Assembly: GCA_004299545.1 (NCBI GenBank)
Contig: SCRB01000854.1
Coordinates: forward strand, 1 to 12,464
Direction of reading: 5' to 3'
Source of the DNA: Rhizobiaceae bacterium
Lineage (GTDB): Bacteria; Pseudomonadota; Alphaproteobacteria; Rhizobiales; Rhizobiaceae
DNA length: 12,464 nucleotides
Every line of letters starts with the position of its first letter. Positions within the stretch are counted from its first letter, which is position 1. Position numbers and translations under genes: made by a program. This document shows, piece after piece, positions 2,712 to 12,019 of the stretch. The notes under the pieces are model-generated. The model saw only the letters and a program-made list of their open reading frames with translations, had not been told where the DNA came from and did not search any database.

Positions 2712-3143
2712 ATGATTGTCGATCCCACCAAGCGCCGTACCGGCACTACGATCCGCGCTCGCGCTCTGAGATTCCATGATACTGAACCGGAATATCGTTT
2801 GTGGAGCGATCTCAGAAATAGACGGCTTAATGGGTATAAGTTTGTGAGGCAGATTCCGCTTGGACCTTTCATCGTTGATTTTCTTTGCAGAGAAAAATTT
2901 CTGGTGCTTGACCTCGACGGGTCACAGCATGCGGAATCCAGCGATGATATTCGGCGGACAAATTGGCTGAATTCCAACAGCTATTCGGTGCTGCGCTTCT
3001 GGAACGATGAAGTATTGAGGGAGCGACGGGCAGTTCTGGAAACAATATTGGCCGTTCTCGATGGCCGGATTTTTGCCCCCTCACCCGGCCTTCGCTTTGC
3101 TCCGGCCACCCTCTCCCCGTTGGGGAGAGGAAGGGGCACCTAA
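2712..3143 (+). CDS. DUF559 protein (Vsr/PD-(D/E)XK-like nuclease fold)
   Basis: 143 residues. The core (about 25-117) has the DUF559 pattern: EYRLWSDLRNRRLNGYKFVRQ, then GPFIVDF (D56), then LVLDLDGSQHAE (D67, D69, Q72, H73), and the closing VLRFWNDEVL at 93-102. DUF559 belongs to the very-short-patch-repair endonuclease superfamily; D56 and the acidic D67/D69 fit the metal site. Position 67 is Asp where many relatives have Glu. The true biochemical activity of the family is not established. From about residue 122 onward the protein (PSPGLRFAPATLSPLGRG) is simply the translated right-hand palindromic repeat, so the C-terminus is repeat-derived. The stop TAA (3141-3143) overlaps the ATG of the next gene by one base (TAATG). 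Lower GC than neighbours and the bracketing repeats indicate acquisition as a cassette. Confidence 0.85.
   Translation: MIVDPTKRRTGTTIRARALRFHDTEPEYRLWSDLRNRRLNGYKFVRQIPLGPFIVDFLCREKFLVLDLDGSQHAESSDDIRRTNWLNSNSYSVLRFWNDEVLRERRAVLETILAVLDGRIFAPSPGLRFAPATLSPLGRGRGT
3076..3130 (-). repeat. Right palindromic repeat of inverted pair, inside the DUF559 3' end
   Basis: Inverted copy of 2656-2710 (51 of 55 identical). It has a 9-bp stem, CCTCTCCCC (3110-3118) and GGGGAGAGG (3122-3130), with loop GTT. It is read as codons of the DUF559 C-terminus. Its outer edge runs into AAGGGG (3131-3136), which sits 6 bases before the permease ATG at 3143, so the repeat edge provides or overlaps the permease ribosome-binding site. 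Part of that purine run is in the hairpin. Confidence 0.9.
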
Positions 3144-6785: not shown

Positions 6786-8983
<2,198 letters not shown>

Positions 8984-9042
8984 GGCCAGCGGCCGGGCGA
9001 GGCGGCTGTCGCTTGAGGAACGAGGACGATAGAGGTCAGACG

Positions 9043-9786
9043 ATGATACCGAACAAGACGCCGGAGACGGGCTCCTTCTTCCAGCGCGACCGCAACTGGC
9101 ACCCGCCAGCCTTCGCGCCGGGCTACAAGACCTCGGTGCTGCGCTCGCCGCAAAAGGCGCTGCTCTCGCTCGACAATACGATCAGCGAGATCACCGGGCC
9201 CGTCTTCGGCCATTCCATCCTGGGCGAACTCGACAACGACCTGATCCACAATTTCGCCAAGCCCGGCGAGAGCGCCATCGGTGAACGCATCATCGTCTAT
9301 GGCCGCGTGCTCGACGAGCGCGGCAAGGCTGTGCCCGGCGCGCTGGTCGAGTTCTGGCAGGCCAATGCCGGCGGCCGCTACCGCCACAAGAAGGAAGGCT
9401 ATATGGCCCCGCTCGATCCGAATTTCGGCGGCTGCGGCCGCACCATCACGGACGAAGACGGCTTCTACACCTTCCGCACCGTCCGGCCCGGCGCCTATCC
9501 CTGGCCGAACGGAGCCAACGATTGGCGCCCGGCCCACATCCATTTCTCGATGTTCGGGCATGGCTTCGCGCAGCGGCTTATCACGCAGATGTATTTCGAG
9601 GGCGATCCGATGATCTGGCAGTGCCCGATCGTCGGGACGGTCGCCGACAGGGCCGCCGTCGAGCAACTGATCGCGGTGCTCGACATGGAAGCGACGATCC
9701 CGATGGATGCGCGAGCCTATAAATTCGATATCGTGCTGAGAGGCCGTCGCTCGACGTTCTTCGAGAATCGGCGCGAGGGGAATTGA
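9043..9786 (+). CDS. pcaH: Protocatechuate 3,4-dioxygenase beta subunit
   Basis: Catalytic, Fe(III)-bearing subunit of the intradiol ring-cleavage enzyme that turns protocatechuate into 3-carboxy-cis,cis-muconate. 247 residues. All four iron ligands are visible: Y113 (GRYRH), Y152 (GAYPW), H165 and H167 (PAHIHFS), plus the active-site Arg R162. These lie five residues after their Pseudomonas counterparts Y108/Y147/H160/H162/R157. ATG 9043 has GAGGT 6 bases upstream; the longer open frame back to 8839 overlaps pobA and is rejected. The partner gene pcaG normally follows immediately but here starts 543 bases later because a toxin-antitoxin pair intervenes. Confidence 0.97.
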
Positions 9787-9811
9787 TGCGCTTTGGGGCT
9801 AGCGATACAAT
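9783..9811 (+). promoter_or_regulatory. Predicted sigma-70 promoter of the toxin-antitoxin pair
   Basis: TTGATG (9783-9788) and TACAAT (9806-9811) are separated by exactly 17 bases, and each differs from consensus at two positions. The -35 box overlaps the pcaH stop codon (9784-9786). The antitoxin ATG is 32 bases past the -10. Confidence 0.6.
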
Positions 9812-9826
9812 GAATACATATATCGC
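9802..9826. promoter_or_regulatory. Candidate autoregulatory operator (inverted repeat)
   Basis: GCGATA (9802-9807) and TATCGC (9821-9826) form a perfect 6-base inverted repeat with a 13-base centre. It covers the -10 box and probable transcription start of the toxin-antitoxin promoter, the position expected for repression by a ribbon-helix-helix antitoxin. Confidence 0.5.
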
Positions 9827-9843
9827 ACACGAGGTTTGCAGCT

Positions 9844-10071
9844 ATGCCCACATCGATCCGTCTTGATCCTGAAACCGAGAAACGCCTTGATCATCTCGTC
9901 GCTCGGACTGGTCGCACCAAAGCCTATTATTTACGGGAACTCATTGCGCGCGGCCTTGAGGATATCGAGGACTATTACCTCGCGACTGACGCTCTTGAGC
10001 GCTTGCGGAAAGGTGAGGAACAAATCCACTCCTCGGCTGAGGTGAGAAAAGAGCTTGGCTTGGACAATTGA
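9844..10071 (+). CDS. RelB-like / DUF6290 ribbon-helix-helix antitoxin
   Basis: 75 residues. The N-terminal ribbon-helix-helix (about 2-45) has the typical pattern [20 protein letters not shown] followed by [11 protein letters not shown] and the acidic hinge [11 protein letters not shown]. The C-terminal tail (about 50-75) should wrap and neutralise the toxin. It is expected to bind its own promoter as a dimer. ATG 9844 has GAGGT 8 bases upstream. Its last 17 bases overlap the toxin gene, a standard arrangement for translational coupling. It sits between pcaH and pcaG. Confidence 0.88.
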
Positions 10072-10321
10072 CTATCTGACCTCGGCCAAGCAAGAGTTGC
10101 GGAAGCTTGATCGGCAGGCGGCCAGCCGAATTATCGACTATTTGGATGACAGGGTCGCCCCGCTCGGAAATCCGAGAAGTCTGGGAATTGCGCTTGCTAA
10201 TTCCAAAGAGCAATTGTGGCGGTACAGAATAGGCGATTATCGCGTAATTTGTGAGATTCATGACGCGCGTCCGATCGTACTCGTGGTCCGGATCGGTTAT
10301 CGCAGCGAAGTCTATCGGTAG
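10055..10321 (+). CDS. RelE/ParE-superfamily toxin
   Basis: 88 residues with the RelE fold pattern: N-terminal helical stretch [21 protein letters not shown], then [15 protein letters not shown] (54-68; R56, R58, R63) and the terminal [12 protein letters not shown] (R79, R83, Y87). These are basic and Tyr residues of the kind used by RelE-type ribosome-dependent mRNA interferases. Many relatives have His where Y82 stands. The start is TTG 10055 (MAWTIDYL), inside the antitoxin gene, with GAGGTG and AAAGAG upstream; no ATG gives a complete protein. The stop TAG (10319-10321) overlaps the AGGAAG ribosome-binding site of pcaG. The frame is intact, so a functional toxin is likely. RelE versus ParE activity is undecided. 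Confidence 0.88.
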
Positions 10322-10329
10322 GAAGAAAC

Positions 10330-10944
10330 ATGCTCCAGTCCCTCAACCGTCTCAAGGAAACGCCGTCGCAGACGGCCGGCCCCTATGTCCATATCGGCTG
10401 CGTGCCGAATTTCTGCGAGATCGGGGGCGTCTATCCCGAGGATCTCGGCAAGTCCATGGTCAACGACAAGACCAGGGGCGGGCGCATCACGGTCAAGGGC
10501 CATGTGATCGACGGTGCCGGAATGCCACTTCGCGACGCCCTGATCGAGATCTGGCAGGCGGATGCGGCGGGGCTCTACAACAGCCCGTCCGAAATGCGCG
10601 GCGCGGCCGATCCGAACTTCACCGGCTGGGGCCGCTGCCCGACCGATATGCAGACTGGCGAATTCGCCTTCGAGACGATCAAGCCCGGTCGCGTGCCGTT
10701 TCGCGACGGCCGAATGATGGCGCCGCATATCACCTTCTGGATTGTGGCCCGCGGCATCAATATCGGCCTCCAGACGCGCATGTATTTCGGCGACGAGCAG
10801 AAGGCCAATGAAGAGGACCCAATCCTGCAACGGATCGAGCATAGAGTGCGCGTTCCGACGCTGATCGCGCGCGCCGAGGGCGACACCTATCATTTCGATA
10901 TCCACTTGCAGGGAGAAAACGAGACAGTTTTCTTCGATATCTGA
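10330..10944 (+). CDS. pcaG: Protocatechuate 3,4-dioxygenase alpha subunit
   Basis: 204 residues, family size about 200. It begins with the hallmark KETPSQTAGPYVHIG and contains the intradiol dioxygenase beta-sandwich (IEIWQADAAG, NFTGWGR, HITFWIVARGINIGLQTRMYF). As expected for the alpha subunit it lacks the Tyr/Tyr/His/His iron set of PcaH; it completes the active site at the subunit interface. ATG 10330 is preceded by AGGAAG overlapping the upstream toxin stop, leaving 8 bases between the genes. pcaB follows after 16 bases. The usual direct coupling with pcaH is lost, so equimolar production would depend on read-through across the toxin-antitoxin genes or on the internal promoter. Confidence 0.97.
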   Translation: MLQSLNRLKETPSQTAGPYVHIGCVPNFCEIGGVYPEDLGKSMVNDKTRGGRITVKGHVIDGAGMPLRDALIEIWQADAAGLYNSPSEMRGAADPNFTGWGRCPTDMQTGEFAFETIKPGRVPFRDGRMMAPHITFWIVARGINIGLQTRMYFGDEQKANEEDPILQRIEHRVRVPTLIARAEGDTYHFDIHLQGENETVFFDI

Positions 10945-10960
10945 TGCTGTCCTAAAGCGC

Positions 10961-12019
10961 ATGAGCGTTTCCGTTTTCGAGCATCCTTTCCTGTCCGGTC
11001 TCCTCGGGGACGAAGAAGTTGCGGCCTTCTTTTCCGCCGAGGCGGATCTCAAGGCCATGCTCGCCTTCGAGGGCGCTCTTGCCGCTGCCGAGGCGGAAGC
11101 AGGGCTGATCCCTGAAGCGGCCGTGTCCGCCGTCGCGGAAGCAGTGGCGTCATTCCAGCCGGATTGGGCAAAGCTTCGGGACGGAACCACGCGGGACGGC
11201 GTGGTGGTGCCGGAATTAGTCCGGCAATTGCGGGCCGCTGTGGGCGAACCGCATGCCCGGCACGTGCATTTCGGCGCGACCAGCCAGGACGTGATCGACA
11301 CCAGCCTGGCGATTCGAATGGGCCGCGCGCTCGATATTCTCGAGCGACGCATCGACGAGGTGATCGACGCGCTCGATGCGCTCAACGCCCGAGACGGCAA
11401 GATTGAAGTAATGGCGCATACGCGAATGCAGGCGGCCCTGCCCGTTGCCGCATCCCGGAAGATTTTAAGTTGGCGCCAGCCACTCGTACGGCACGTGGAC
11501 GGGTTGTCGGAAGTCTTCTGGGACGCTGATCTCCTTTCTCTTGGAGGTGCCGTCGGCACCCAGGATTTGCTTGGCGAAAGGAAGGACGCGATTCGCCGGA
11601 AGGTTGCGCAAGATTTGAAGGTTCGAGATCCTATTCTCGCACGCCATTCGGAGCGCGACGGCGTCGTCGTCCTTGCCGACTGGCTGTCGCTTGTGACGGG
11701 CAGTCTCGGCAAGATGGGGCAGGACATGGTGCTCGCGGCGCAAAGCGAGGTCGGCGAGATCAAAATCAAGAGTGGCGGCGGATCGTCCGCCATGCCGCAC
11801 AAGGTCAATCCGGTCGGCGCGGAAATTCTCGTCACGCTCGCCCGCTTCAACGCGACACTCGTTTCCGGCATGCACCAGTCGCTGGTGCATGAAAACGAGC
11901 GTTCCGGCTCGGCCTGGACGCTGGAATGGATGCTGCTGCCGCAAATGGTCGTGGCGGCGGGCGCGGCGCTCAGGACGGCAGTGGATCTGGTGGGAAATAT
12001 CGCATTCGTGTCGAAATAA
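10961..12019 (+). CDS. pcaB: 3-carboxy-cis,cis-muconate cycloisomerase
   Basis: Fumarase/aspartase-superfamily enzyme closing 3-carboxy-cis,cis-muconate to 4-carboxymuconolactone, the step after PcaHG. 352 residues, near the ~353 usual in rhizobia and shorter than the ~450-residue Pseudomonas protein. Conserved blocks are present: HVHFGATSQDVIDTS (101-115) and the superfamily signature GSSAMPHKVNP (274-284) with the catalytic Ser loop. ATG 10961 is used although no strong ribosome-binding site is seen; re-initiation after pcaG, 16 bases upstream, is plausible. It is the last gene of the pob/pca run. pcaC and pcaD, which act next, are not in the window. Confidence 0.95.
   Translation: MSVSVFEHPFLSGLLGDEEVAAFFSAEADLKAMLAFEGALAAAEAEAGLIPEAAVSAVAEAVASFQPDWAKLRDGTTRDGVVVPELVRQLRAAVGEPHARHVHFGATSQDVIDTSLAIRMGRALDILERRIDEVIDALDALNARDGKIEVMAHTRMQAALPVAASRKILSWRQPLVRHVDGLSEVFWDADLLSLGGAVGTQDLLGERKDAIRRKVAQDLKVRDPILARHSERDGVVVLADWLSLVTGSLGKMGQDMVLAAQSEVGEIKIKSGGGSSAMPHKVNPVGAEILVTLARFNATLVSGMHQSLVHENERSGSAWTLEWMLLPQMVVAAGAALRTAVDLVGNIAFVSK

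Follow-up and report, generated by a model that had tools for sequence, protein, structure and literature searches.

A complete toxin-antitoxin (TA) pair separates pcaH from pcaG, the genes for the two subunits of protocatechuate 3,4-dioxygenase, which normally adjoin, and both subunit genes are intact, as the initial annotation of this DNA had claimed. The pair is best explained as an autoregulated, selfish type II (RelBE-like) cassette that probably sits in an old and recurrently used site at the pcaH-pcaG junction, a reading drawn from sequence comparisons. The window, that is, the whole stretch of DNA analysed (12,464 bases), is an entire contig of a draft genome of 4.59 Mb in 1067 contigs. 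Its plus strand carries pobA, pcaH, the antitoxin gene, the toxin gene, pcaG and pcaB in this order, and a gene for an AraC-type regulator diverges from pobA. The features are as follows.

6786 to 7820, minus strand: AraC-family regulator (HTH_18 and AraC_binding), divergent from pobA; start codon approximate
7760 to 8983, plus strand: pobA, 4-hydroxybenzoate 3-monooxygenase (TIGR02360, 653.7 bits), upstream of pcaH on the same strand; start codon approximate
9043 to 9786, plus strand: pcaH, protocatechuate 3,4-dioxygenase beta subunit (TIGR02422, 366.5 bits, cut-off 296.4), intact
9783 to 9811, plus strand: promoter-like TTGATG-17-TACAAT (TTGATG at 9783-9788, TACAAT at 9806-9811), the first hexamer overlapping the pcaH stop
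9804 to 10324, plus strand: apparent cassette, from the -10/operator region to just past the toxin stop, as outlined by DNA-level alignment with plasmid TA modules of other bacteria
9811 to 9826, plus strand: operator-like TGAATACATATATCGC, a 12/16 match to the palindrome TGAATACATGTATTCA of relatives, with its second half degenerate in the window
9844 to 10071, plus strand: antitoxin, ribbon-helix-helix (RHH)/RelB-like, 75 aa (NF048017 RelB-like, 102.1 bits, cut-off 50; Pfam RHH_1, 32.3 bits, cut-off 20.5)
10055 to 10321, plus strand: toxin, RelE/ParE superfamily, 88 aa (Pfam ParE_toxin, 55.3 bits, cut-off 23)
10320 to 10325, plus strand: Shine-Dalgarno-like AGGAAG of pcaG
10330 to 10944, plus strand: pcaG, protocatechuate 3,4-dioxygenase alpha subunit (TIGR02423, 254.2 bits, cut-off 126.25), intact
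10961 to 12019, plus strand: pcaB, 3-carboxy-cis,cis-muconate cycloisomerase (NF004631, 493.6 bits)

The pair spans positions 9844-10321 and its two genes overlap by 17 nt. The Shine-Dalgarno-like sequence of pcaG shares bases with the toxin stop TAG (10319-10321), as had been described. The order pcaH-TA-pcaG recurs in G001, G002, G003, G035 and other genomes, three of them in the genus of the window, and is thus not a chimera of the draft assembly. Three further open reading frames in the TA block gave no Pfam match, family matches being limited to the two TA genes, and no RNA family reached its gathering threshold in the window.

The RHH antitoxin gene lies directly upstream of, and overlaps, a gene for a RelE/ParE-family toxin, so that the pair resembles RelBE and other RelE-ParE type II modules in gene order, overlap, antitoxin fold, toxin length and toxin family. 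It differs from RelBE proper in its toxin, which scored 24.0 bits against the NCBIfam model TIGR02385 (RelE_StbE), below the cut-off of 27.9, and whose nearest solved structure by sequence is 2khe, which we take to be a toxin-like protein from Thermus, and not E. coli RelE. A profile made from seven junction toxins matched 2khe at 3.9e-31, Rv2866 at 2.5e-12 and the E. coli RelE entries at 2.2e-5 to 2.8e-4. Residues R58, R63, R83 and Y87 are invariant across these seven toxins. Three of them, R63, R83 and Y87, pair with the E. coli RelE residues R61, R83 and Y87 in an alignment in which RelE K52 and R81, which are catalytic, have no basic counterpart. The ParE_toxin family also includes gyrase inhibitors. 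By homology, the toxin would be assigned a RelE-type activity, namely the cutting of ribosome-bound mRNA. Its start is the TTG at 10055, within the antitoxin gene, the sole start codon near the region of homology; this position is TCG in G102 and G213, where the likely start is a GTG two codons upstream.

The distribution of the pair was determined from 394 genomes of the family searched with PcaH, of which 278 matched at E 1e-60 or better. The 142 junctions compared consist of the 140 best-ranked among those listed, the window and G001 (in which pcaH is cut by a contig end and the junction was set by hand); they are ranked by similarity to the PcaH of the window and so stand for its nearest homologues rather than for the whole family. 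The pair was present at 19 of these junctions, in seven genera, and absent from the other 123, where pcaH and pcaG adjoin. Among the genomes sampled it occupied the junction in 4/4 of g1 (the genus of the window), 3/6 of g31, 1/1 of g33, 4/5 of g100, 1/4 of g108, 1/2 of g138 and 5/5 of g145. In the empty junctions, the pcaG start lies between -4 and +2 nt relative to the pcaH stop in 113/123 cases, with gaps of 10-11 nt in seven and of 46-61 nt in three; TGATG is found at the stop in 76/123. In the filled loci, the antitoxin starts 51-69 nt past pcaH and the toxin stops 8-15 nt before pcaG. The flanks are whole in filled and empty junctions alike, with no internal stop in pcaH and no PcaG shorter than 190 aa among the 142.

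The presence of the pair at pcaH-pcaG is therefore patchy within one family. The counter-case named in the initial annotation, an ancient layout fixed throughout the order with decayed toxin genes, is not what these junctions display, since most of the pairs are also intact. The same holds at the scale of the order: in 397 order genomes, 42 of which had a toxin match, neither pcaH nor pcaG was found beside the best-scoring toxin matches outside the family. Remnants of the pair were also sought in the empty sites with longer gaps. Neither the antitoxin nor the toxin was matched at 1e-3 in the 61-nt gap of G419, and nothing operator-like was seen by eye in G143 (46 nt), G390 (58 nt) or G419. Among 18 filled loci checked, G000 and G377 keep TGATG at the pcaH stop, possibly a relic of an old pcaG start.

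We then compared the sequences at the edges of the pair. The -35 box that had been placed over the pcaH stop is present as a sequence, and the pcaH ending AAT-TGA, which gives TTGA, was found in 17/19 loci with the pair and in 50/123 without it (Fisher p 9e-5, kinship ignored). The promoter geometry did not hold throughout, as the spacing between the -35 and -10 elements is 20-21 nt in G002, G236 and G377 (counted by eye) rather than the 17 of the window. TTGATG-17-TACAAT is the single sigma-70-like match in 8900-11050, and shuffles gave a mean of 0.8, so that alone it is not above chance. Sequences of the TGAATACATGTATTCA type were found upstream of the antitoxin in the 19 filled loci, exact in 5/19, at 13-15 of the 16 positions in nine and at 12/16 in five, the last including the window, G001 and G002. 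The score of the window was reached by a fraction of 0.003 of 1000 shuffles of its leader, and none of the 19 filled loci exceeded this fraction when its own leader was shuffled. The pair seems to have a promoter and an operator of its own, and the antitoxin, alone or with the toxin, would repress this promoter.

The same type of operator was found in other phyla, before the non-junction relatives L055-L059, L064 and L084 (13-15 of 16 positions), and in the same family before the non-junction locus L039 (16/16), the other non-junction loci scoring mostly 6-12. The form of the operator tracks the N-terminal strand of the antitoxin: PTSxRL goes with TGAATACATGTATTCA and LALRL with GCTATACATGTATAGC, while antitoxins with KQTAIRL or KQTAVRL have mostly GGGAT- or GGTAT-type palindromes. 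Exceptions are L157, L362 and L366 in the PTSxRL class and L337 in the KQTAIRL/KQTAVRL class, and a fourth class of strand (NKRVTIEM and similar) showed no clear palindrome. This correspondence agrees with recognition of DNA by ribbon-helix-helix proteins. Such classes could insulate co-resident TA pairs from one another.

Comparison with plasmid TA modules (Mycetohabitans, Azotobacter, Pseudomonas and others) outlined the apparent cassette at the DNA level. Positions 9804-10324 aligned with 19 plasmid records, at 66-70% identity in the best 10 of the 19. The homology extends over operator, antitoxin and toxin, the modules differing in that they reside on plasmids; the annotated features under the matches are the TA genes alone. 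The left edge fell at 9804 in 9 of the 10 matches listed, and the right edge at 10322-10324 in the three longest, the other seven of the ten ending within the toxin gene. This alignable stretch does not include the -35-like TTGATG of the pcaH stop, which may therefore be supplied by the host pcaH gene. The GC content of the TA block is 52.1%, compared with 63.8% for pcaH and 61.3% for pcaG.

No plus-strand terminator was found in 8900-11050, so transcripts from the pca side are likely to enter the pair, and those of the pair to continue into pcaG. The pcaG gene would then be read from both the pca promoter and the TA promoter, and it would have traded its close coupling with the pcaH stop for nearness to the toxin stop. 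For the same reason, expression of the pair may be tied to aromatic induction, as the initial annotation had suggested, but the pair seems to be driven from its own promoter and operator. The initial annotation had also suggested that an addiction module in this place would penalise deletion of the catabolic genes. On this view, the pair would have been recruited for killing or stalling any cell from which pcaHG is lost, and so would protect the catabolic operon. A pair that is intact, has a low dN/dS and lies inside the operon in the orientation of the pca genes, with readthrough unhindered by a terminator, is what such a stabiliser would look like, but 123 of the 142 junctions retain pcaHG without it, and pcaHG is likewise intact at each of the 4 filled ones (of 19) whose toxin is broken. 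Moreover, related pairs adjoin fabD and hisS, which are essential genes and need no stabiliser, and the pair appears to be regulated from an operator of its own. The comparisons lend no support to a protective role, and we consider addiction very unlikely as the explanation of the pair; the persistence of a selfish cassette would require no benefit to the pca pathway.

Both TA genes are intact in 14 of the 19 filled loci. The four broken toxins have an in-frame stop (G409), a frameshifted first half (G327) or a lost N-terminus (G147 and G368). In G003 (L195), residues 27-56 of the antitoxin are out of frame before the frame is restored, and the toxin is open; this may be a sequencing error. 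Three of the broken toxins form a decay series within genus g145 (G147, L223; G368, L209; G327, L254) in which pcaHG is kept; G147 and G368 show further changes, in the antitoxin strand and in the operator.

The dN/dS of the antitoxin was 0.02 for G251/G349, 0.10 for G218/G275 and 0.16 for G001/G002, and that of the toxin 0.15, 0.13 and 0.21, respectively. The toxins of G000 and G002 differ by 24 nonsynonymous and 47 synonymous changes, which gives an omega of 0.05, synonymous sites being near saturation. These low values are weaker evidence than they appear, because the broken pair G147/G368, whose toxins have lost their N-termini, was also low (0.20 for the antitoxin, 6 vs 9 changes, and 0.14 for the toxin remnant, 4 vs 8) and several distant toxin comparisons gave 0.25-0.47. 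The dN/dS ratio fails to separate working from broken pairs.

The g145 series also bears on a use of the pair as a regulatory part of the pca operon, in which antitoxin and operator would have been co-opted to tune the ratio of pcaG to pcaH or to shut the operon under stress. All of the g1 and g145 genomes sampled (4/4 and 5/5) are filled, a putative promoter lies before pcaG, and the gap of 8-15 nt between toxin stop and pcaG keeps the two close, as this use would lead one to expect. However, three g145 genomes have a broken toxin, two of them with operator and antitoxin also altered, and pcaG is intact in all three, while close relatives manage without the pair. Such a co-option is highly improbable in our estimation.

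The history of the site was examined on a quick-method tree of 142 rows built from PcaH and PcaG together. The distribution of the pair requires 10 gains or losses on this tree, and starred branches force at least five of them. A single set of 72 rows (support 89, unstarred) contains all 19 filled loci. A second tree was made from 61 TA pairs, namely the 19 junction pairs and the 42 non-junction pairs that remained of 70 usable ones after thinning at 85% toxin identity; on it the junction pairs form three clusters. In AU tests, a single clade for all 19 junction pairs was not rejected (p 0.128), while a single clade for the three g31 pairs was rejected (p 0.034) and one for the g100 pairs was borderline (0.058). 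The pcaHG genes that go with these three g31 pairs form one group (support 98, starred). The initial annotation had proposed comparison of junctions as a way to date the insertion: this yielded the 19 filled and 123 empty sites and the 10 changes, but a single ancient insertion was not rejected.

Such an insertion, at the base of the 72-row group, followed by vertical descent and many precise losses with no exchange, would account for the confinement of all the filled loci to that group, for the result of the AU test on the junction pairs as a whole and for the correlation between TA and flank distances (Mantel r 0.34, p 0.0096, over 15 loci, the four broken or scrambled ones being omitted). 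It does not sit well with the rejection of the g31 pairs as one clade in spite of the single group formed by their pcaHG, it must restore a junction of a few nucleotides at every loss, and the pair of G102 is distant from those of its near-identical congeners. The PcaHG sequences of the congeners G102 and G251 differ by 2.9% (amino acids) and their TA pairs by 36.2%, while G251 and G349 differ by 3.1% in PcaHG and 3.7% in the TA pair. We regard a single insertion without exchange as unlikely.

Comparison of G102 and G251 in steps of 40 columns located the change at the gene edges. Nucleotide identity is 90-97% at the end of pcaH, drops to 42-78% in the TA block, with one step at 87%, and is 97% from the pcaG start codon onward; the 10-nt leader before pcaG is identical. 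Replacement of a whole cassette within an occupied site would be the simplest reading of this profile. Under the recurrent-use reading that we prefer, cassettes would spread and be lost between strains through recombination, with the conserved flanks in pcaH and pcaG as guides.

No recombinase, integrase or transposase was recognised in the TA block, and no consistent target duplication was found across the 19 filled loci. When the 3' end of pcaH was compared with the leader of pcaG at these loci, only G001 stood out (0.004), the next lowest values being 0.078 for G236 and 0.080 for G002. In the G001 locus (L007), the end of pcaH and the leader of pcaG share the 9-base direct repeat AAGGGAATT, whose shuffle fraction of 0.004 is unmatched among the 19. 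Import with long flanking tracts was also considered: in blocks of 60 nt of pcaH and pcaG from four groups of loci, no donor-like tract was seen near the junction by eye.

Relatives of the pair were then collected at other sites. The 85 non-junction loci comprise 25 from earlier searches and 60 from the matches listed; L044, L047-L051, L053, L054 and L160 were omitted as weak, as lacking an antitoxin match or as duplicates. Clustering of neighbouring open reading frames placed 58/85 in four recurrent sites, the remaining 27 having no shared site. Twenty-six loci (e.g., L037 and L156) lie beside hisS, a hisS-like open reading frame being found in 24 of them. Eighteen (e.g., L043 and L373) lie 3' of a gene for an ABC-F-type ATPase, at a distance of 47-197 nt (47-63 nt in 16/18). 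Seven of the 85 (L039 at 1296-1767, L304, L345, L351, L357, L362 and L366) lie 62-88 nt past fabD, with fabG directly downstream in five, and their operator is exact in L039, L304 and L351. Seven lie before a DUF6638 gene and/or after an AAA gene. Neighbours were checked against Pfam in representatives only, which gave hisS for L037, ABC_tran and ABC_tran_Xtn for L043 and L052, DUF6638 for L147, AAA for L343, and fabD-type and fabG-type genes for L039 and L304. At the hisS site, the toxin stop is often 3-6 nt before a gene without a Pfam match.

A quick tree of 104 rows (the 85 pairs and the 19 junction pairs) required 16 changes of site, compared with a minimum of five and with 62.5 in shuffles, and the post-fabD pairs form one group on it (support 98, starred). 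Each site thus appears mostly to retain its own TA lineage. A broader reading, which we put forward tentatively as a possibility well short of even chances, is that one RelBE lineage of this family supplies interchangeable cassettes to a few fixed sites at gene edges (pcaH-pcaG, after fabD, beside hisS, after the ABC-F gene and before the DUF6638 gene), with mostly one lineage per site, with antitoxin strand and operator defining distinct recognition classes, and with exchange breaking at the edges of genes. If this is true, TA pairs that lack a recombinase of their own would enter and swap at operon sites in a novel, guided way.

TA modules within operons are already known, and the pcaH-pcaG site would be a variant with unusually fine data on filled and empty versions. 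In E. coli, mazEF lies in relA-mazG, yafNO in dinB-yafP and ccd in folA-apaH, and such sites can hold different elements, their mode of integration being given as unknown in an excerpt of PMC7167474. The pair described here is like the intercistronic TA modules of that excerpt in that it lies within a working operon, varies between strains and leaves the operon undisturbed where it is absent; as for relA-mazEF-mazG, filled and empty versions of the operon with intact flanks occur among relatives. It differs from them in that the genes split encode two subunits of one enzyme, in that stop and start of the empty site lie within 2 nt in 113/123 cases and seven genera are filled, and in that an apparent exchange of cassettes is resolved to gene edges. 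A search of the open literature (subscription journals lay mostly outside its scope) found no report of a TA pair between pcaH and pcaG. Two candidate precedents were set aside: the excerpt of PMC3516476 (Mesorhizobium, protocatechuate) has a different layout, and that of PMC2590616 (catabolic operon) describes a doc gene on a plasmid.

The movement and integration of chromosomal TA modules are stated to be unresolved in the same excerpt of PMC7167474. The present locus provides a single nucleotide-tight site in numerous versions, both filled and empty, a sharp-edged apparent exchange and a natural series of toxin losses, which makes gain, swap and decay directly open to study, and the paired occupied and empty sites suit the study of how TA pairs settle in working operons. 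The locus also indicates that two subunits of one enzyme tolerate the loss of an overlapping or nearly touching stop and start, which bears on how strict the coupling of subunits within operons has to be.

The window contains a second guest of an operon, a DUF559 gene (2712-3143, 121.7 bits) located between ABC transporter ATPase and permease genes. It is accompanied by 55-nt inverted repeats at 2656-2710 and 3076-3130, which are 93% complementary, the second lying within the 3' end of the gene.
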